Part shown: one piece after another, positions 287 to 29,666 of the stretch | Position numbering within the stretch: position 1 is the first letter of the stretch | Layout of the letters: each line of letters starts with the position of its first letter | Source: Microcaldota archaeon | GTDB taxonomy: Archaea > Micrarchaeota > Micrarchaeia > Anstonellales > Bilamarchaeaceae | Direction of reading: 5' to 3' | Assembly (NCBI GenBank): GCA_018812715.1 | Contig: JAHJCT010000028.1 | Location: 1-64,000, forward strand | Length of the DNA: 64,000 nucleotides | Notes under the pieces: generated by a model | What the model was told of the DNA's origin: nothing | The model's input: the letters and a program-made list of their open reading frames with translations, nothing else | The model's database searches: none | Made by a program: the position numbers and the translations under genes

Positions 287-1581
287 TTTTTTTCTTTTAT
301 TTTTCTTATTAATTCTCCCAAAACATCTTTTACAAAACCAATCTTTACTCTTATTGCACCTGCTTTAACATGTCCACCACCGCCTTCTGTGAAATCTGGC
401 ATAGTTTGCAATATTTCTTTTGCCAATTCGTTAACGCTTAGTTTAACAGCGGCCAGATCATTAAGCCTCATTATCAGAGATCTTTCAGTATAACCAATAC
501 AAACAATGCCCTCATCTTTTGATAATCTTTCAAATACACATGTGGTTATTTTGCTTGCCGGTGGCCATTCACCTTTCTTTACAATATTATCAAGTTGAAA
601 TGTTACAATCTTCACTCCATTTTCAATAATTTTCATTTGTTGCATTGCACGATCTGCAGCCTCTGCAATGCTTTCTTTTGCCTGCATTACAATTGATGAA
701 AACAGTTTTTCATTTGCCATTACTTTACGATAAAAATCAAGGTTATTGCCAAATGATATGTGTGCAGCAAGATAATCCAACACCATTGCTTTTTCTACAT
801 CCCCACTATCACTTCCTAACAAATCGCTTTTATCCCCAGCACATGCTATTTTTGCAAGTTTTTCTCCCTCATCTCTGTCAACACCACAACATATTGCTAT
901 TTCACATGCTAAATATCCTGCGGTATACTTAGAGGCGTCTGGCGATATTGTGCAAGAATTAAGTATATCTTTATTTTTTCCTGGCGGATGATGATCAATT
1001 ATAATAACCTCTGTTCCAGCAGCTTTAAGCAACTCAAGTCCTTCTAAAGATGCATCATTAGATCCAAAATCTAACAATACAACTAATGGTCTTCCTTCCT
1101 GTTCTGCTAATCCAATGTCCCTAAAAGCGTCCCTTACACTATAAACAGCAGAGTTCTGTTGATGTGCTTTGCATCTAAATACATTTGTTAATGCCAATGC
1201 ACCTGCTATTCCATCAGCATCTCCATGAAAATGAAGTATAAAATTACGGCCCAATTTCTTTGCACATAATAATTCAGTTGCGACCTTCTTAATACCGGGC
1301 CATAATCTAATGCTAATCTCATCATTTTTCAATACTGGTTTTTCTGGTATTTTTAGCGTTTCAGCCATATTTCTTTTTACTTCTTGATGAACCTCATCTG
1401 CTTCTTTTCCAGAAAGTACAATGACACAAGTTGGCTCTTCTTTTTCCTCTCCTTCAACAACTACTGCACTACCCTGTGGCAAAGATTCTTTGCTATAAAA
1501 TGAATATTCTTTTTTCCCATCAATTACTTTACATGAACAACGCCCTCTTTCATACCTTACCTTGCTTACTATCCCTCTCAT
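283..1581 (-). CDS. DHH-family phosphoesterase / archaeal RecJ-like nuclease
   Basis: HFHGDADGIAGALAL, VVLLDFGSND, VIIIDHHPPG and C-terminal GGGGHVKAGAIRV (DHH/DHHA1 motifs). Confidence 0.85.
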   Translation of the reverse strand: MRGIVSKVRYERGRCSCKVIDGKKEYSFYSKESLPQGSAVVVEGEEKEEPTCVIVLSGKEADEVHQEVKRNMAETLKIPEKPVLKNDEISIRLWPGIKKVATELLCAKKLGRNFILHFHGDADGIAGALALTNVFRCKAHQQNSAVYSVRDAFRDIGLAEQEGRPLVVLLDFGSNDASLEGLELLKAAGTEVIIIDHHPPGKNKDILNSCTISPDASKYTAGYLACEIAICCGVDRDEGEKLAKIACAGDKSDLLGSDSGDVEKAMVLDYLAAHISFGNNLDFYRKVMANEKLFSSIVMQAKESIAEAADRAMQQMKIIENGVKIVTFQLDNIVKKGEWPPASKITTCVFERLSKDEGIVCIGYTERSLIMRLNDLAAVKLSVNELAKEILQTMPDFTEGGGGHVKAGAIRVKIGFVKDVLGELIRKIKEKN

Positions 1582-2201
1582 CAGATAACCACCATTATGC
1601 TATCGCCATCTTTTTTCCCAAGTTTTTTTCTAATGTTAAAAGGCCCTATCACTTCAAGTATCTCAGTACCATGGTGAGTTCTAAGAGGAACAATAACCGC
1701 ACATTCCAGGCCCTCTATTTTACACCTATATGCAAAAAGATCGCCATATGTTCTTTCTTTATCTTTGAATCCCATTATTACAATTGATTCAAATTGAAGT
1801 AGTTGTTTTCTTTTCCACATTTCATCGATTCTTATGTTTAGTGTTCCGGGGAAGGGGTCAAAACCAAGTTTCTCTCTTATCTGTTTTCTATATCCACCCA
1901 TAGCAAGATAATATTTTCCCTCACCAAGTCCTTTAGTTACAATTCCCGTAATTGTCATTTCTTTATCTTCAAACGTATTTTTTAGAATTCCATAAACACT
2001 TGCAATTTCATCATATGCTTTTTTTGTTAACAAAATTCCCCCTTTACTACGTTTTGCATATCCGTCTTTTTCAAGAACCCTCAATCTTCTAGAAGCATTT
2101 TGCTGTGACATTTCTAATTCTGAACCCAATTCTGCAGTAGACAGCCTTACTGGTTGTCTATGTCCATTTTTTTTGAATAAGAAAAGTAGGACTTCGTCCA
2201 T
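1581..2201 (-). CDS. CTP-dependent riboflavin kinase with N-terminal winged HTH (RbkR-like)
   Basis: N-terminal wHTH (LSTAELGSELEMSQQNASRRLRVLEKDGY) plus archaeal riboflavin kinase domain (GEGKYYLAMGGYRKQIREKLGFDPFPGTLNIRI). Confidence 0.88.
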   Translation of the reverse strand: MDEVLLFLFKKNGHRQPVRLSTAELGSELEMSQQNASRRLRVLEKDGYAKRSKGGILLTKKAYDEIASVYGILKNTFEDKEMTITGIVTKGLGEGKYYLAMGGYRKQIREKLGFDPFPGTLNIRIDEMWKRKQLLQFESIVIMGFKDKERTYGDLFAYRCKIEGLECAVIVPLRTHHGTEILEVIGPFNIRKKLGKKDGDSIMVVI

Positions 2202-4787: not shown

Positions 4788-5861
4788 TTATCTCCTTTCG
4801 ATATCAAATTCCATCAATACGTCGTAACCTACAATTGTTGTCTTTCTATTTTTGAGTTTCAATGCCTTTTCCATTGTTTTTATACCATCCCCACCGACAA
4901 CTCCTTTTGCTGTCCTTCCCCCTATAATTTTAGGTGCAATGAAGAGATAGAGCTTATCCACTATGCCTGCTTTCAATGCCCCTGCATTCAACTCACTTCC
5001 CCCCTCTATTAATATTTTTCTTATACCCATTGCCTGCAATCCCAATATGGCTTTTTTCAAATCCACTTCTTTTTTTCCACAAACAAAAATCTGCGCTTTT
5101 TTGCCCATTCTTTCTCTTTTTTTTCTAGATGCCTTTTCTGTTGTTATCACTATCGTCTTTTCACCATTTCCAAATACATTAGAATTTATTAGTATGCAAA
5201 GATCGCTATCAATTATTATCCTATACGGATTTCTACCATCTTTAATTCGTGCTGTTAGTCTTGGGTTATCTTTTTTTACTGTGCCAGCACCAACCATTAC
5301 AGCATCAAACTCACTTCTCAACTTATGTACAAATTTCCTAGCATTTTCTCCTGTGATCCATTTCGAATCTCCTGTTTTTGTTGCAGTTTTTCCATCTGCA
5401 CTCATGGCCATTTTTATTGCAACAAATGTTTTTCTGGCAATATTTTTCAAGTATTTTTTATTGAGTGTTCTTGCTTTCTTCTCGTTGATAGGACCAACTA
5501 CTATTACTCCCGCTTCTTTCAATTTTTTCCTTCCATCTACTAATGGGTTAGGGTCTTTCATTGCAAAAACTACTTTCTTAATTTTATTAGCAATTATTGC
5601 CCCTGTACATGGTGGCGTACGTTTGTTAGTATGCGAACATGGTTCCAGAGTAACATAAAACGTGCTTCCTTCTACTTTTTTTCCTTTTTGCTTTGCATCA
5701 TTAATTGCATTTATTTCAGCATGTTCCTCTCCCGCTTTTTTGTGATATCCAGTTCCTATTACCTCCCCATCTTTTACTAAAACGGCCCCTACTCTAGGAT
5801 TTGGAAATGGGTCTGCTTTTTTCGCTAGCCTAAAAGCAAGCTGCATAAAATTTGCCATCAT
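4788..5861 (-). CDS. ribD: Bifunctional diaminohydroxyphosphoribosylaminopyrimidine deaminase / reductase
   Basis: Deaminase motif HAEINAIN...YVTLEPCSHTNKRTPPCTGAI plus reductase domain (KWITGENARKFVHKLRSEFDAVMVGAGTVKKDNPRLTAR). Confidence 0.93.
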   Translation of the reverse strand: MMANFMQLAFRLAKKADPFPNPRVGAVLVKDGEVIGTGYHKKAGEEHAEINAINDAKQKGKKVEGSTFYVTLEPCSHTNKRTPPCTGAIIANKIKKVVFAMKDPNPLVDGRKKLKEAGVIVVGPINEKKARTLNKKYLKNIARKTFVAIKMAMSADGKTATKTGDSKWITGENARKFVHKLRSEFDAVMVGAGTVKKDNPRLTARIKDGRNPYRIIIDSDLCILINSNVFGNGEKTIVITTEKASRKKRERMGKKAQIFVCGKKEVDLKKAILGLQAMGIRKILIEGGSELNAGALKAGIVDKLYLFIAPKIIGGRTAKGVVGGDGIKTMEKALKLKNRKTTIVGYDVLMEFDIERR

Positions 5862-5893
5862 ATAAGACTCAGCTTATTAAGTTTTAATTACAT

Positions 5894-6748
5894 TTGAATC
5901 CCATGCAAAAAAGATATTTCCCGCTCTTCATCATGTTCATTCTTACTTTTGGTTGTCTCGAAAGTTTATTCCCGCCAGAAATTAAGCCTTTCAGTGCAGA
6001 TGCACAAAAATATTATGAACTCAAAAATCTCTCTTGTGATACACTCTCAGGTGACTTCCTAATAGTGACGCATGACATTTCCGCCCCCAGCATTTCTGGC
6101 CTAATAGAAACAATACCTGGAGAGCTTGAAATTGCACAAAATATTGCAGAAGATTATTCATTCAATCAAACAACAAAGACCTATCTTCTTAATGATGAAA
6201 TGAAACGCGTTGTGATAACTGAAGATCAAGAATTAACTACGATATGGAAAGATGGCCGGATCTACAATTGTACTCCTAATTGTACAATGCGTGTTATGAC
6301 ACAACAAGAATCTGATGAATATTATACTACTTTAAATGCTATAAAAACGACATGCGCTCATTTTGGAAAAACAGAACTTTCACCTTCAATTACTCTAGAA
6401 AAACTACTCCATATCGAATATACTGGCAAAATTGATACAATTTATTCTCATTGTGATAATTTCCTTATTAGTGGAAATAAAACATATGCTGAAGAACTAC
6501 TTGCAATAGGAGAATTTGATGAAGAAACATTCCTGTGGATTATTGCACATTTAGATGGTCCAATAAATGAATGTCTTGATGAAAGCACTGGCATAATCAC
6601 TTTCAGAAATCTCAGCCTTGATCTGACCAATGTTTACCTGTTTAATTATACTGACGGTGGGTATATGAAAGTTAATCAACAAACAGAACTTCTTTATTTC
6701 ACCAATGATGTGCCACAATCTTTTCTGGCATTACCAAGTCAAAGTTGA
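5894..6748 (+). CDS. Hypothetical lipoprotein
   Basis: Signal peptide plus lipobox-like FILTFGC. Confidence 0.6.
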   Translation: MNPMQKRYFPLFIMFILTFGCLESLFPPEIKPFSADAQKYYELKNLSCDTLSGDFLIVTHDISAPSISGLIETIPGELEIAQNIAEDYSFNQTTKTYLLNDEMKRVVITEDQELTTIWKDGRIYNCTPNCTMRVMTQQESDEYYTTLNAIKTTCAHFGKTELSPSITLEKLLHIEYTGKIDTIYSHCDNFLISGNKTYAEELLAIGEFDEETFLWIIAHLDGPINECLDESTGIITFRNLSLDLTNVYLFNYTDGGYMKVNQQTELLYFTNDVPQSFLALPSQS

Positions 6749-7311
6749 TGATTCATTTTCTCTTTTTTGGTTTTCAAATATTTTTCATTATGTTCATTAG
6801 GATCAGAAATAAGTGGAACTCTTTCAGCAACCTTTATTCCATGTTCTTCTAATTCTTTGATTTTATCTGGATTATTTGTAAGCAATGTGACACTCTCTAT
6901 CTTGAAATATTTCAATATCTCTGCTGCTGCAGCATAATCTCTTAAATCATCACAAAATCCTAATTCCAAATTAGCCTCCACAGTATCAAGACCACCATCT
7001 TGCAAAGCATATGCCTTTATCTTATTTGCAAGGCCGATTCCCCTACCTTCTTGATCTAAGTATATGAAAATCCCATCTTCTTCTTTTCCTAAATATTCTA
7101 ATGCTGCTTCAAGTTGATTTCTACAATCACATCTCAATGAACTAAACGTATCTCCTGTCAAGCATTTGGAGTGTATTCTTACCGGCACATTCTCACATTT
7201 TTCATTCGTGCATCTAACAAGTGCAAGGTGTTCTCTCCCCTCATCCACAAATGCATGTACTGTAAACGTTCCAAATTTAGTTGGAAATGCGGCTTCATCT
7301 ATATGTTCCAT
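6739..7311 (-). CDS. ribA: GTP cyclohydrolase II
   Basis: SKCLTGDTFSSLRCDCRNQLEAAL, YLDQEGRGIGL, LLTNNPDKI. Confidence 0.93.
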   Translation of the reverse strand: MEHIDEAAFPTKFGTFTVHAFVDEGREHLALVRCTNEKCENVPVRIHSKCLTGDTFSSLRCDCRNQLEAALEYLGKEEDGIFIYLDQEGRGIGLANKIKAYALQDGGLDTVEANLELGFCDDLRDYAAAAEILKYFKIESVTLLTNNPDKIKELEEHGIKVAERVPLISDPNEHNEKYLKTKKEKMNHQL

Positions 7312-7312
7312 T

Positions 7313-8182
7313 TTATCCCCGTAATGTTTTTACAAGATCTAATGCAGCATTTGTGGCCCGTTCTGCATATCCCTCAGCCCTTTCTTCAGCTGCGCTCCAA
7401 CCAACATCATGACCAATTATACCTAAGGTTACAGGTTTATTAAACTCTAACGAAAGTTCACCGAGTCTTTTTGCTACATCTTTCGTTATAATCTCATCAT
7501 GAGCAGTTTTCCCATGCACCACTGCTCCCAAAGCCACGACTGCGTGTACCTTTTTCTCCATAAGCATTTTTTTCACAACTAAGGGCATATCATAAACACC
7601 AGGAACTTTTACAATTTTTATTACGGCGCCTTTAGCAGTTTCAACAGCCTTTTTCTCCATCCTTTCAGTTATTTCATTGTTAAATTGGGCAACAACAATC
7701 GCGATTCTTATTTCATCTTTTTCTATTGGTCCTTCATCTTCCTTACCCTGCCTTACTCCCATTCCGGCGTTCTTTACAAGTTCCTCTGGGTTTTTTACAA
7801 TCAACACAGCATTGTGCACATGCTTTCTAATGCGATTTTCACAAATCTCAACAAATTCTTTTGCACTCCATGCTTCATTTTCATGTACAAAAACCTCTAT
7901 GATATGTTTATTTGTAAGAAGCTTTGTTTGTTGAATGCCAAGGGATGCTTCGTGTGCACACTGTGTATCTATAGGTGCTCCACCCACCATACCAAGTGCA
8001 AGACATACATCACAATTTTCTAATAATTTTTTACATTCCACTGGAAGATCCTTTACACCTGGAACCGTCCTCCTTATTACTTCAATATCCGAATATTTTC
8101 TTATCTCATCAATTGCAATTTCTCCCATATTCACGCGTGAAAACATTGTATCAACAATTCCTAGTTTAATCATAAAATTCAC
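7313..8182 (-). CDS. Fusion: archaeal-type riboflavin synthase + 6,7-dimethyl-8-ribityllumazine synthase
   Basis: N-terminal MIKLGIVDTMFSRVNMGEIAIDEI...PGVKDLPVECKKLLE...LGMVGGAPIDTQCAHEAS (archaeal riboflavin synthase); C-terminal IRIAIVVAQFNNEITERM...VPGVYDMPLVVKKML...VVALGAVVHGKTAHDEII...ERATNAALDLVKTLRG (RibH). Confidence 0.9.
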   Translation of the reverse strand: MNFMIKLGIVDTMFSRVNMGEIAIDEIRKYSDIEVIRRTVPGVKDLPVECKKLLENCDVCLALGMVGGAPIDTQCAHEASLGIQQTKLLTNKHIIEVFVHENEAWSAKEFVEICENRIRKHVHNAVLIVKNPEELVKNAGMGVRQGKEDEGPIEKDEIRIAIVVAQFNNEITERMEKKAVETAKGAVIKIVKVPGVYDMPLVVKKMLMEKKVHAVVALGAVVHGKTAHDEIITKDVAKRLGELSLEFNKPVTLGIIGHDVGWSAAEERAEGYAERATNAALDLVKTLRG

Positions 8183-8807
8183 TTCCTTCTAAAAATACAA
8201 ATCCGTTTTCTTCTGCATATTTTTGTGCATTTTCTTTTGACAATGCCTTTCCTTTGCCAAGCATTTCACATAGTACCATTACGCCTTTCAAACCAGCTTT
8301 TTTTGCTAATTCTAATGCAAGCTCTGTATGCCCCTTTCTATTTTCTATTCCCCTCCCAATGAGAAGAAAAACATGCCCTGGTGAGTAAAAATCTGCAATT
8401 AATTCTTTCTTTAAATCCCCTTCATTTTCTGCGAGTTCACTCATTTTCTTTATGGTAAGCGCCCGATCATTATCAGTAATTCCTGTATACACGCCCTTGT
8501 AATTTACTGGAATAGAAAAAGCTGGCTTATCCTTGTAGGCAGTTTTTGTGCATTCCATTTCTTTGATCTCAGCATCAGAACTAGCTAGAATATCTGTATA
8601 AAATACGAGTCCCATTCTCTTTGCTATCATTGGTTCTATTGCTAGACAAATCAATCCCCCTGCCTCTTTCCTTAGTTTCTCTATTTTATCAGGTGTTACA
8701 AATTTTGCATGAAAAATTATATCTGCTTCTCCTTCGCGTTCATCCCCATCATAGATTAGTACCATACTTCCTTTTCTAAGCTGGGCTACTGCATCATTAA
8801 TAATCAT
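8166..8807 (-). CDS. ribB: 3,4-dihydroxy-2-butanone 4-phosphate synthase
   Basis: LIYDGDEREGEADIIFHA, GHTELALELAKKAGLKGVMVLCEML. Confidence 0.93.
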   Translation of the reverse strand: MIINDAVAQLRKGSMVLIYDGDEREGEADIIFHAKFVTPDKIEKLRKEAGGLICLAIEPMIAKRMGLVFYTDILASSDAEIKEMECTKTAYKDKPAFSIPVNYKGVYTGITDNDRALTIKKMSELAENEGDLKKELIADFYSPGHVFLLIGRGIENRKGHTELALELAKKAGLKGVMVLCEMLGKGKALSKENAQKYAEENGFVFLEGSEFYD

Positions 8808-9327: not shown

Positions 9328-10896
9328 ATGCACTTATTAGCACGAGCCCTAGACCAGAGACCAACTACTGGAAGTTTTTCAACCAACAAACCCCTAGTTG
9401 ATAATCCAACTATGCTTGTGAATCCAAATAAAGTAGCAGCAAGAGAACAAGGATTGAAGAGTACAATCACTGTTGCTATCTTACTGGAATATTGTGTTTC
9501 TAATGGACAACTTCCCAATAGTGTGCCATTGCGTAATAGAAGTTCTGGTAATTTTCCAGAGTGTTTCCCTGGCATCTGTATAAATCGTTTGAGACGGGCA
9601 ATGGGGAAATCATTATCAAAGCGCGAAAGTGGGGCTTATGGTGCTGGCGTTCAAGAAGCACGTAAATTTGTATCGCAATATTATGGTAGAGTACCTCCGC
9701 ATCAAATCTTTTTCACAGCAGGAATTAGTGGGGGGATTGAATACCTGTATGACACATTTCTTGGGAGTACGGGCGGTAAAGTACTCATTCCAAATGCCAG
9801 CTACCCAACACACTTTGCCAGTGCAATCTCTTATGGTGGCATTCACAGTGTCGTAACTGTTGATCGAACTTCAGCAGGCCTACCTGATTTTTCCTCGTGC
9901 ACTAATGGCGATAATCCATTTGCACAGGTCAATCTTTCCAGTTTTATACCATTTGATAATCCAATTCCAATCCGTTATCCAAGATCATTTTTCCGTAATG
10001 GAGGAACGGGCATTTTTGATCTTAATGAAGCTGCACAAACAGATGGTGTAATACGACCAATAATACTTGATTGGATCTACTCTTCATTTTCTTGGGGAAA
10101 TAATCCAGTATCTATTGATGAAGTCATAAAATTGGCGAATGAAAATCACGTACTCATATTTCTCAACAGCATTTCCAAAGTCTTTTTGGAACCGGGCCAA
10201 AGGGCTGGAGTACTTGCAGTATATGTTCCAGAACATTGGACGACTGGAAATATCGGAAAGGTCGTTGAAGGCGCACTTATACGAAATCTGAATGCACTTA
10301 ACAGCATTTATCTGGTTCAGGGTTCAAGAACATCCATAGCTGCATTGGTTGAAGCCCACAGAATACTTATGGAAGAAGAATCAATGCCAAATGCTGAGCT
10401 TGATGGGTTGCGCATGGAGGCAAAACGAAGATTTGTAGGAGAAGATGGCAGCAATGGAAATCGTGCTATCATGTGTGCCATACCACATATTGCTCCGCTT
10501 TATCCAGATGTGATGGTAGAATCAAGTGGTTATGAAGTTTTCAAAATAACTGGATCAAATCTTCCATGGAAAAATAATTTATATAAACAAGGAGTTCTGC
10601 ACAAATTCGAAAAATTGATCGGCCAAATAGATGATGAACGAATTCGTGCTGGTGCTTTTAATGCACTCAACTATTTCAAACAACATGTACCTCTAGAAAA
10701 AATGTCACCATCTGATATATTTTGTTTAGAACTTGCTATGGAAACTGGGGTTGCCACTGCTCCTGGCGACAGATTCTTCATGCTTGGAACAGCACCAGAT
10801 GAAGTGATGTTCAGAACTGTGATGATATTCCCAGAACATGAAACAAGAAGAGATGCTGAATTAATTTCAGAATTTCTTAGAACCAAGCTGGGTTAA
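9328..10896 (+). CDS. PLP-dependent aminotransferase, fold type I (class I/II)
   Basis: SGAYGAGVQEARKFVSQYYGRVPPHQIFFTAGISGGIEYL and NSISKVFLEPGQRAGVLAVYVP (PLP lysine region). Confidence 0.8.
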   Translation: MHLLARALDQRPTTGSFSTNKPLVDNPTMLVNPNKVAAREQGLKSTITVAILLEYCVSNGQLPNSVPLRNRSSGNFPECFPGICINRLRRAMGKSLSKRESGAYGAGVQEARKFVSQYYGRVPPHQIFFTAGISGGIEYLYDTFLGSTGGKVLIPNASYPTHFASAISYGGIHSVVTVDRTSAGLPDFSSCTNGDNPFAQVNLSSFIPFDNPIPIRYPRSFFRNGGTGIFDLNEAAQTDGVIRPIILDWIYSSFSWGNNPVSIDEVIKLANENHVLIFLNSISKVFLEPGQRAGVLAVYVPEHWTTGNIGKVVEGALIRNLNALNSIYLVQGSRTSIAALVEAHRILMEEESMPNAELDGLRMEAKRRFVGEDGSNGNRAIMCAIPHIAPLYPDVMVESSGYEVFKITGSNLPWKNNLYKQGVLHKFEKLIGQIDDERIRAGAFNALNYFKQHVPLEKMSPSDIFCLELAMETGVATAPGDRFFMLGTAPDEVMFRTVMIFPEHETRRDAELISEFLRTKLG

Positions 10897-26477: not shown

Positions 26478-29400
26478 TCATATATCCAGATTCTTTACTT
26501 CGACTGCATTATCTTCTATGAATTGTCTTCTGGGCTCTACATTGTCTCCCATAAGTACTGTGAATAGCTCATCAGCTACTATTGCATCCTCTATTGTTAC
26601 CTTCTTGAGTGTTCTCGTTTCAGGATCCATAGTGGTTTCCCATAACTGTCCTGGATTCATTTCACCAAGACCCTTGTAACGTTGTATTCCTGCCTCTCCA
26701 ATTTCAATTAACTTTTGCTTGAGTTCATCATCACTATATGCGTAATCTATTCGTTTTCCCTTCTGAACCCTGTAAAGAGGCGGTTGTGCAATGTATAAGT
26801 ATCCTTTTTCTATTACTTCTTTGAAATAGCGATAGAACAATGTAAGCAAAAGCGTTCTGATATGCGAACCATCTACATCAGCATCAGTCATTATCACTAC
26901 CTTATGATATCTAATTTTTGAAATATCAAAGTCATCCTTGAATCCTGCACCCATAGAAAGAACGACATTCTTTATCTCTTCACTATTCAATACCTTGTGC
27001 ATCGGTGCCTTCTCAACATTAAGTATTTTTCCTCTAAGTGGAAGTATTGCTTGATATCTCCTATCTCTTGCTTGTTTTGAACTGTTGTGAACAAATACAC
27101 CACTTGCGAGAGCGAAATTATGTGTTCCTTCTACTTCAAAATCGTAAACATCTATTTTTTTATTAATCTTCTCTAATCTTTTGATTTTATGATTGTAGTG
27201 TTGTATTTGTTCCATTAACAATTTTTCATCATTTCCAAAAAATCGCTGGCATATAGTATCATATTTAAGAAGATTCTTATCATTTCTTTTTAGTCTTTCT
27301 TTATTATAGTTCTCTTTACTAAGTTCCCCTTCTCTTTCAAAAATCTCTCTCATTACTGTTAATGCTTTTTCCTTATACGTTCTGTTATAACTCTCTTTTC
27401 TTTTTGCTCTGAAGTCTGTCGTCCATTGCTCTTTTGTTTTTTGTCTTCTCCATACACGTAATTTATCATCCATCCATTGCATTTTTGCTTTCCTTTCCAA
27501 TTCTTTTTTCTTTTCGGGGTGTTTTTTGAAATATGCCTTTACTCTCTCAGATTGTTTTTTCCTATTTTCCGGATTGCTCCAATGTTCTTGTTGTTTTTGA
27601 TTAAGTAATTCATTATTTCTCTTTCTGTATTCTGTATTATTATAGTAAAAATTAAGGAAAGATTCAACCATATATCTCTTGTAGCTTTCATTTTTCCATT
27701 GTTTTTTTGCTCTTTTACTTAACATCCTCCGTATTTTTGGCTTGCACATTACTACACTGATTTTATTACGGTATTCTTCAGTTTGATGTGCTCTGCGGAT
27801 TTTTTCCAATACCTCTGGCTTTGCCATAGTCTCTTTTACCACTCGTGCATGTAAATCGAGATGCTCTTGTTTACCCATACGACGCAGATTCGTTGGATTA
27901 TTGTTACGTTTATTGAAATCGACATGATGCACACATGAGTTTTTCTTCTTTGAGTATTTTTTTGTTGCTAAATTGTATTCATCAGCCAGTAAATGAGTAA
28001 ATATCCATCTACTATCTTTAGGATCGAAAACTAGTTCATAACCCGCGATTGTTATTCTTTTACCTAGTTTTGAATATTGTCTATATAACGGCATCAAAGA
28101 TACTTTTTCAGTTAATTCTTCTGCTTTTTGATAAGAACCGTCACGTACCATAAAAAGATGGTCTGGTGTGCATATAATCTCTTCTTGATCGTCTGTAATA
28201 ACTCTTATTACTTCTGCATTTTTTCTGGTAATTCTAGGATCTTTTATCGGCGCAATTCCAATATGACCATCCTCATTTATAGTGTAACAAAAGTTCTGTT
28301 TCCCTTGCCTATGCTCTTTTACAAGTTCTCTAAAACTGAGATTCCTGCCATCCGCTAAAGCAACTTTTGTATCTCCTGAAAAACATCCACCTGCACTATC
28401 ACCTTCCACAATGAAAATCTCAGCTTTTTGTGGATCTTGTTCACTGCAATCTGCCAGTTTTCCGGGCAAAAGACTGCTTTCAAATACTGTTTTTCTTCTT
28501 ATCAGATCCTTTGCTTTTTGTGCTGCTTCTCTTGCTTCCATTGAACTTACTATTTTTTGAGCTATAATTCTTGCTTCATTTGGGTGCTCTTCGAGGTATG
28601 TTTTGAGATTATCATAAACAACACTGTCAACGATTCCCCGAACCTCACTATTCCCAAGCTTTGTTTTTGTCTGTCCTTCAAATTGTGGTTCAGGAATCCT
28701 AAGGCTAACTACTGCTGTAAGTCCTTCACTTGCATCATTACCAGTAATTTTTCTCTCTTCTTTAATGATCTTATTTGATTTTACATAATCGTTAATTGTT
28801 CTTGTCAAAGCTGTTCTGAAACCAGTCAGATGGGTTCCGCCCTCTATTGTTTTTATATTATTAACAAAACTGTAAATCATCTCATTATAGCTATCTGTAT
28901 ATTGGAGTGCCAATTCCATTTCGATTCCATCAGCTTTTTTCTCAAAACAAAACGGTTCGTGAAGCATGTTCCTAGCTTTGTTAAGGTATTTTACGAACTG
29001 TGTTATTCCACCCTCATAGCAAAAACTCTCTTCTTTATCGGTTCGTTCATCTCCAAGTGAAATTCTGAGACCTTTATTCAAAAATGCAAGTTCCATTAAG
29101 CGTTCTTTCAAATATTCATAATCAAATTCAAGCACAGTGAAAATTTCATGATCTGGTTTGAATATCACTACTGTTCCCCTGTGCTCAGTGTCACCTACAA
29201 TTTTTGCTGGCTGTATTAATTTACCTCTACTGTATCCAATTGTGTGTAATTTTTTCTCCCTATGTACCTCAATTGTCATCCATTCAGAAAGTGCATTAAC
29301 AACACTCATACCTACACCATGCAACCCTCCTGAAACTTGGTACGCCTTTTTTGCAAATTTGCCACCTGCATGCAAAGAACTAGATACTACTTCTAAGGCT

Positions 29401-29666
29401 GATTTTCCTGATTTATGTATATCTATCGGTATGCCTCGCCCATCATCATTTATACTTACTGAGCCATCCTTGCGTAATACGATTTTGATATTTTTACAAT
29501 ACCCGGCTAACGCTTCATCTATGCTGTTGTCTACAATTTCATAGACTAAGTGGTGTAGTCCTCTTTTGACAGTGTCTCCTATGTACATTCCTGGCCTTCT
29601 TCGTACTCCTTCGAGACCTTCAAGAATCTGGATTTCTTTAGCTGTATATTCTGAGTCACTTTCCAT
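26478..29666 (-). CDS. gyrB: DNA gyrase subunit B, intein-containing precursor
   Basis: GHKL motifs (DNSIDEALAGYC, DDGRGIPIDIH), TOPRIM EGDSAGG split from SSKQARDRR by the intein. Confidence 0.97.
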   Translation of the reverse strand: MESDSEYTAKEIQILEGLEGVRRRPGMYIGDTVKRGLHHLVYEIVDNSIDEALAGYCKNIKIVLRKDGSVSINDDGRGIPIDIHKSGKSALEVVSSSLHAGGKFAKKAYQVSGGLHGVGMSVVNALSEWMTIEVHREKKLHTIGYSRGKLIQPAKIVGDTEHRGTVVIFKPDHEIFTVLEFDYEYLKERLMELAFLNKGLRISLGDERTDKEESFCYEGGITQFVKYLNKARNMLHEPFCFEKKADGIEMELALQYTDSYNEMIYSFVNNIKTIEGGTHLTGFRTALTRTINDYVKSNKIIKEERKITGNDASEGLTAVVSLRIPEPQFEGQTKTKLGNSEVRGIVDSVVYDNLKTYLEEHPNEARIIAQKIVSSMEAREAAQKAKDLIRRKTVFESSLLPGKLADCSEQDPQKAEIFIVEGDSAGGCFSGDTKVALADGRNLSFRELVKEHRQGKQNFCYTINEDGHIGIAPIKDPRITRKNAEVIRVITDDQEEIICTPDHLFMVRDGSYQKAEELTEKVSLMPLYRQYSKLGKRITIAGYELVFDPKDSRWIFTHLLADEYNLATKKYSKKKNSCVHHVDFNKRNNNPTNLRRMGKQEHLDLHARVVKETMAKPEVLEKIRRAHQTEEYRNKISVVMCKPKIRRMLSKRAKKQWKNESYKRYMVESFLNFYYNNTEYRKRNNELLNQKQQEHWSNPENRKKQSERVKAYFKKHPEKKKELERKAKMQWMDDKLRVWRRQKTKEQWTTDFRAKRKESYNRTYKEKALTVMREIFEREGELSKENYNKERLKRNDKNLLKYDTICQRFFGNDEKLLMEQIQHYNHKIKRLEKINKKIDVYDFEVEGTHNFALASGVFVHNSSKQARDRRYQAILPLRGKILNVEKAPMHKVLNSEEIKNVVLSMGAGFKDDFDISKIRYHKVVIMTDADVDGSHIRTLLLTLFYRYFKEVIEKGYLYIAQPPLYRVQKGKRIDYAYSDDELKQKLIEIGEAGIQRYKGLGEMNPGQLWETTMDPETRTLKKVTIEDAIVADELFTVLMGDNVEPRRQFIEDNAVEVKNLDI
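27084..28385 (-). mobile_element. GyrB intein, 434 aa, with HNH endonuclease domain
   Basis: Starts CFSGDTKVALADGR, block B CTPDHLFMVRDGS, HNH-like CVHHVDFNKRNNNPTNLRRM, ends THNFALASGVFVHN with S at +1; junction codons located on the sequence. Confidence 0.95.

Follow-up and report, generated by a model that had tools for sequence, protein, structure and literature searches.

The fusion gene and its genomic surroundings

The minus strand of the window (the whole stretch of 64,000 nucleotides that was analyzed) contains at 7313–8182 a single open frame of 289 codons with zero internal stops, which runs from GTG 8182 to the stop at 7315–7313 and encodes an archaeal riboflavin synthase (RibC) followed by a lumazine synthase (RibH). 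The plus strand of this interval is riddled with stops and non-coding. The initial annotation had described one frame carrying both enzymes, uninterrupted between the domains; both points hold, but the reading direction had to be corrected to the minus strand (8182 to 7313) and the start, probably, to ATG 8173. Translation more likely begins at this ATG, yielding 286 aa, than at GTG 8182, because the GTG sits within GGAAGTGA, a stretch resembling an archaeal ribosome site, and because relatives of the fusion protein start close to the position of the ATG. The features of the locus are listed below in the order in which they are read.

8166..8807, minus strand: ribB (TIGR00506, 189 bits, above the cut-off of 177.45); overlaps the fusion ORF; present at 25 of 25 fused loci
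8179..8186, minus strand: ribosome-site-like GGAAGTGA, 5 bases upstream of ATG 8173 and including GTG 8182; read from the sequence
7313..8182, minus strand: RibC–RibH fusion ORF, 289 codons from GTG 8182; probable start ATG 8173 (286 aa)
7724..8167, minus strand: archaeal riboflavin synthase (RibC) domain, residues 6–153 (TIGR01506; match to PDB 2b98)
7709..7729, minus strand: junction, consisting of the end of the RibC tail and a short linker (~residues 152–158); no in-frame start codon
7322..7711, minus strand: RibH (lumazine synthase) domain, residues 158–287 (TIGR00114, PF00885)
6739..7311, minus strand: ribA, GTP cyclohydrolase II (TIGR00505, 240 bits, above the cut-off of 205.85); begins one base past the fusion stop; 25 of 25 fused loci
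4788..5861, minus strand: ribD, bacterial-type bifunctional deaminase/reductase (TIGR00326, 332 bits, above the cut-off of 156.35); 21 of 25 fused loci
1581..2201, minus strand: winged-helix protein with a CTP-dependent riboflavin kinase domain (RbkR-like; NF010762, 184.5 bits, below the cut-off of 279); a further member of the flavin gene set

The minus strand carries, in this sequence, ribB, the fusion, ribA and, farther along, ribD; the neighbor counts refer to 25 fused loci, each examined together with flanking sequence of up to 5 kb. The genome is 90% complete, and absences from it are therefore not absolute. Its only matches to PF00885 were the two halves of the fusion ORF, and neither a match to the bacterial trimeric riboflavin synthase (Lum_binding, PF00677) nor the archaeal GTP cyclohydrolase III was found in this 90%-complete assembly. 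The flavin pathway encoded at 4788–8807 (minus strand) is of mixed origin, with a bacterial-type GTP cyclohydrolase II and bifunctional RibD acting early and the archaeal riboflavin synthase last. No riboswitch or other RNA family was found in the window.

Identity of the two halves

Residues 6–153 matched the NCBIfam model TIGR01506 (ribC_arch) with 208.4 bits over positions 1–151 of 151 (curated cut-off 100.55), and residues 158–287 matched TIGR00114 with 141 bits over positions 1–135 of 138 (cut-off 84.6). Both families are thus found complete in one protein, as had been proposed. At the level of Pfam, one single family, PF00885, covers both halves as two stretches (153.7 bits; cut-off 26.7), and each half alone scores above this cut-off (116.5 and 45.2 bits). 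Aligned to each other by BLASTP in a single comparison, the halves share 27% identity over 110 residues (E 2e-6). This alignment and the PF00885 scores show directly that the RibC and RibH halves are paralogues of each other joined in one polypeptide, which bears out the kinship of the two families assumed at the outset.

The structural comparisons gave the same assignment. The closest solved structures are the riboflavin synthase of M. jannaschii for the RibC half (2b98; residues 6–153, phmmer E 1e-45) and the lumazine synthase of Aquifex for the RibH half (residues ~150–285, E ~1e-17), and the RibC half is 53–54% identical to the pentameric M. jannaschii enzyme (PDB 2b98/2b99) over its full length. 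An AlphaFold2 monomer model of the fusion, computed from a 72-row alignment of the protein and its relatives, reached a mean pLDDT of 96 and a pTM of 0.86; when it was compared with the PDB (Foldseek), TMt was 0.95 for 2b98 and ~0.76–0.84 for lumazine synthases.

Nearly all of the columns that are near-invariant in separate RibC proteins and shared with the M. jannaschii enzyme are retained in the fusions (D11, T12, F14, T39, P41, G42, K44, D45, C50, D72, C75, H93, E103, R117, H121, N124, R144, Q145, and G146), and the motifs DT.F, TVPG.KDL, HEAS, and AG.G.RQG are present in the protein encoded in the window. These riboflavin-synthase residues, together with the TIGR01506 score, rule out that the N-terminal half is a degenerate RibH repeat, which had been named as an observation that would speak against the fusion. 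On the RibH side, N168, G195, P200, T226, H228, D229, K249, P250, and R268 are retained in the fusions. The Phe–Asn, Thr-x-His-Asp, and Arg of RibH correspond to F167, N168, T226, H228, D229, and R268 of the window protein; the N, T, H, D, and R occur in all 31 fused domains of family f1, to which most fusions belong (see below), and the F in 30 of 31. The conserved His and Arg of lumazine synthase are catalytic and phosphate-binding residues in the bacterial enzymes.

For the two closest fused-gene pairs, dN was 0.065–0.12 and dS 0.84–1.5 over both halves, which indicates that purifying selection acts on both halves in the fused clade; in wider fused pairs, dS was saturated or nearly so. At five loci (L036, L037, L038, L041, and L042), the RibC half carries a variable insertion of ~10–30 residues near residue 55, before the CD..ALGM strand.

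Distribution and origin of the fusion

A search of 301 genomes of the phylum, nearly all of them metagenome assemblies, returned a match to the fusion protein in 88, and the relatives in the public collection are, by name, nearly all Candidatus Micrarchaeota. Whether the genes are fused or separate was determined by stop-to-stop reading at one locus per genome. In the Micrarchaeota family f1, 31 of the 32 synthase-bearing genomes carry the same fused ORF and one carries separate genes; in family f27, one genome (G295) is fused and two are separate; in other families, the genes are separate wherever both were seen. Among 34 genomes of the nanohaloarchaeal phylum, no fusion was found, the pairs seen there being separate or having a stop in between. 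Because the same fused ORF recurs in 31 separate f1 genomes, chance or an assembly slip is ruled out, and the RibC–RibH fusion is confirmed as a real, inherited, and lineage-specific enzyme fusion.

Several apparent further cases did not hold. Putative RibB–RibC–RibH triple fusions (L049 and L073, 477 codons; L094, 508 codons) reflect an upstream ribB in another frame that merely overlaps, and long open frames with two separate matches in G059, G065, G038, and G097 were resolved by stop-to-stop analysis into separate ORFs.

The 45 unfused pairs (44 from Micrarchaeota, one from a nanohaloarchaeon) are separate but tandem, ribC preceding ribH, with spacings from an overlap by tens of bases up to ~140 bases apart. 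In seven pairs (G149, G146, G118, G119, G148, G181, and G210), the start of ribH directly follows a single in-frame ribC stop, so that these pairs are one substitution short of fusion. Because the unfused pairs are tandem and seven of them are split by one stop codon, the fusion evidently originated, judging from this gene arrangement, when the stop that ended ribC ahead of ribH was lost. Loci L095–L099, L101, and L102, from seven Micrarchaeota in which ribC and ribH share a frame and are divided by one stop (TGA or TAG) followed by the ribH start (ATG; TTG in L102), are candidates for stop read-through or for intermediates toward fusion.

When the joined halves were placed in one tree of 76 rows, the fused proteins of f1, 30 of which were complete enough to be included, formed one clade (SH-aLRT 99). 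The minimum number of changes between the fused and the separate state was two on the joined tree, two on the RibC tree, and four on the RibH tree, the last of which has few columns. The second fused ORF, that of G295 (L094), belongs to a distant family and has a linker unlike that of f1. An independent origin of this fusion is possible; G295 lies apart from f1 in the best tree, but a single clade of all fused rows was not rejected (p-AU 0.50). The lone f1 genome with separate genes, G028, probably acquired its pair by transfer, or was misbinned, rather than having undergone fission, because its genes are a different version and a clade of all f1 rows was rejected (p-AU 0.026): its RibC and RibH group with those of G038, G045, and G097 and with the nanohaloarchaeal pair (support 99). 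Fission was not supported.

Eleven further members of f1 (G025–G027, G033, G035, G036, and G073–G077) lack both enzymes as far as detectable by search, which suggests that riboflavin synthesis was lost repeatedly in this family. Four loci (L136–L139, from G162, G195, G117, and G157) carry an archaeal-type RibH, and no archaeal RibC was found by search in these genomes.

Proposed function and assembly

Lumazine synthase releases 6,7-dimethyl-8-ribityllumazine and phosphate, and riboflavin synthase converts two lumazines into riboflavin, returning one uracil substrate (PMC13376624). The fusion is predicted to be a bifunctional enzyme for these last two steps of riboflavin synthesis, its halves pentameric and set in matched five-fold rings that ease the exchange of lumazine and uracil; we put the probability of this reading at roughly three in four. 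The RibH half would condense 5-amino-6-ribitylaminouracil with the four-carbon phosphate from the neighboring RibB to 6,7-dimethyl-8-ribityllumazine, two of which the RibC half would dismutate to one riboflavin and one uracil, the latter going back to RibH. Each half would adopt its usual pentamer, such that five chains, with linkers of 5–12 residues, make up two five-fold rings at a 1:1 stoichiometry, and the pairing of the rings would bring both sets of active sites close together, easing two-way traffic of lumazine and uracil. This double-ring assembly, and any channeling within it, is inferred from homology and from the monomer model. In archaea, riboflavin synthase is a homopentamer, and pentamers are also the building blocks of lumazine synthases, whose active sites lie between the subunits (PMC10366380). 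The symmetries of the two halves therefore match; the “mixed symmetry” that the initial annotation had envisaged for the assembly is not what these pentamers predict.

A serious rival, to which we would give slightly less than even odds, is that the fusion is neutral: an ancestral stop between tandem, cotranslated genes was lost, and each half works on its own, held to the other by a flexible tether, without channeling or any special assembly beyond that of the separate proteins. What makes it serious is the lack of conservation in the linker and the fact that separate genes are already adjacent, several pairs being one stop codon short of fusion; a linker of 5–12 unconserved residues fits a loose tether without a special interface, and each half resembles a normal member of its family. 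However, the fused state is kept in 31 of 32 f1 genomes, the exception having a different, acquired-looking gene pair, and G295 possibly marks a second origin. In addition, two positions hint at, but do not prove, change after the fusion: position 105 of RibC is Trp in 30 of 30 fused versus 0 of 45 separate proteins, and position 258 of RibH, which is Pro in 45 of 45 separate proteins, is His in 20 of 31 fused ones.

The matched-ring reading can be drawn more specifically, as a symmetric double pentamer, or a cage thereof, in which the RibC ring faces the RibH ring, lumazine and uracil pass directly between them, and clade-specific residues such as Trp105 lie at the contact. In the BLAST alignment of the halves, Trp105 of RibC is opposite Trp262 of RibH, which we take to be at or beside L121/E122 in Aquifex numbering. 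In the Aquifex cage, L121/E122 are reported at the interface between pentamers (PMC13376624). The location of Trp105 at a ring–ring contact is a testable idea and not a result. Since there is essentially one main fusion event to count, Trp105 and the other clade-specific residues could equally be ordinary family markers unrelated to the fusion. The specific arrangement with direct passage is rather doubtful.

It is very improbable that the ORF yields separate mature proteins, through an internal start or proteolysis. The linker, which leads from the RibC tail (RQG..DEG) to the first strand of RibH, consists, among the fused loci, of 5–12 unconserved residues, and no conserved cleavage motif was found in it. 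The window ORF has a single in-frame start near the junction, ATG 141; although this codon precedes the RibH domain in frame, it falls within the conserved RibC tail and is not preceded by a ribosome site. ATG codons occur at the junction in a few relatives, but no position of an ATG, GTG, or TTG there is common to the fused genes, several of which lack a start codon in this region altogether. An internal start, which had been raised as an objection to a true fusion, is thus not supported. Least credible is that only one half is active and the other is retained as a scaffold: in some fusions, RibH diverges faster than the RibC to which it is joined (dN 0.46 for RibH and 0.14 for RibC between G006 and G011), and the otherwise invariant Pro258 is altered in most fused RibH domains, but none of the 31 fused f1 domains has lost the conserved RibH residues, His228 and Arg268 among them, and no second gene that could supply the activity was found in the 90%-complete genome.

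Comparison with known systems

Bacterial coupling of the lumazine synthase and riboflavin synthase steps is a textbook example of how enzymes are compartmentalized. In the heavy riboflavin synthase of Bacillus and the cage formed by the Aquifex enzymes (PMC13376624), the same two reactions are physically coupled, as is proposed for the fusion. There, however, the partners are separate proteins, and the riboflavin synthase, a trimer of the unrelated bacterial type, is held inside a lumazine synthase 60-mer by a C-terminal peptide, whereas in the fusion the link is covalent and the partners are paralogous. Neither hallmark of the bacterial complex was found: the 90%-complete genome has no match to PF00677, and instead of ending in a cage-localization peptide, the RibC C-terminus leads through the linker of 5–12 residues into RibH. 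In a survey from 2026 that covered 166 organisms, the peptide-mediated complex was predicted in bacteria only (PMC13376624). The fusion would correspond, in archaea and with a covalent link, to the bacterial cage of lumazine synthase around riboflavin synthase.

The N-terminal half is like archaeal pentameric RibC (TIGR01506; M. jannaschii, 2b98/2b99) in length, conserved residues, and fold, but the known enzyme stands alone, whereas the fusion carries a lumazine synthase on the RibC C-terminus. Likewise, the C-terminal half is like RibH (TIGR00114, PF00885), being of full length with the conserved residues present; known RibH proteins form free pentamers, decamers, or 60-mers, whereas the N-terminus of the fused RibH is tied to RibC. 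In the MscL–RibC fusion made for crystallography (PDB 4y7j and 4y7k), a pentameric partner is also joined to RibC, but that protein is engineered, joined at the RibC N-terminus, and without a second enzyme. No report of a RibC–RibH fusion was found among the open-access papers searched.

In the fusion, two paralogous enzymes that catalyze consecutive steps share a chain, which fixes their ratio at 1:1, and their five-fold symmetries match. With the unfused sister genes available for comparison, it makes the benefit to the pathway of coupling without a cage directly testable, and as a natural archaeal fusion, it is a ready-made scaffold for protein design. If the double ring and direct passage are real, archaea would have found a covalent solution to the coupling that bacteria achieve by encapsulation.

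Other genes of the window

On the opposite strand, between pyrDK and the rib genes, lies a gene (9328–10896, plus strand) for a 522-residue protein that is weakly aminotransferase-like, PF00155 matching on part of it only. At 26478–29666 (minus strand), gyrase B is interrupted by an in-frame intein, with splicing motifs at residues ~428–507 and 839–862 and an HNH-like stretch at 578–602; a full gyrase A adjoins, making this a bacterial-type gyrase in a Micrarchaeon.
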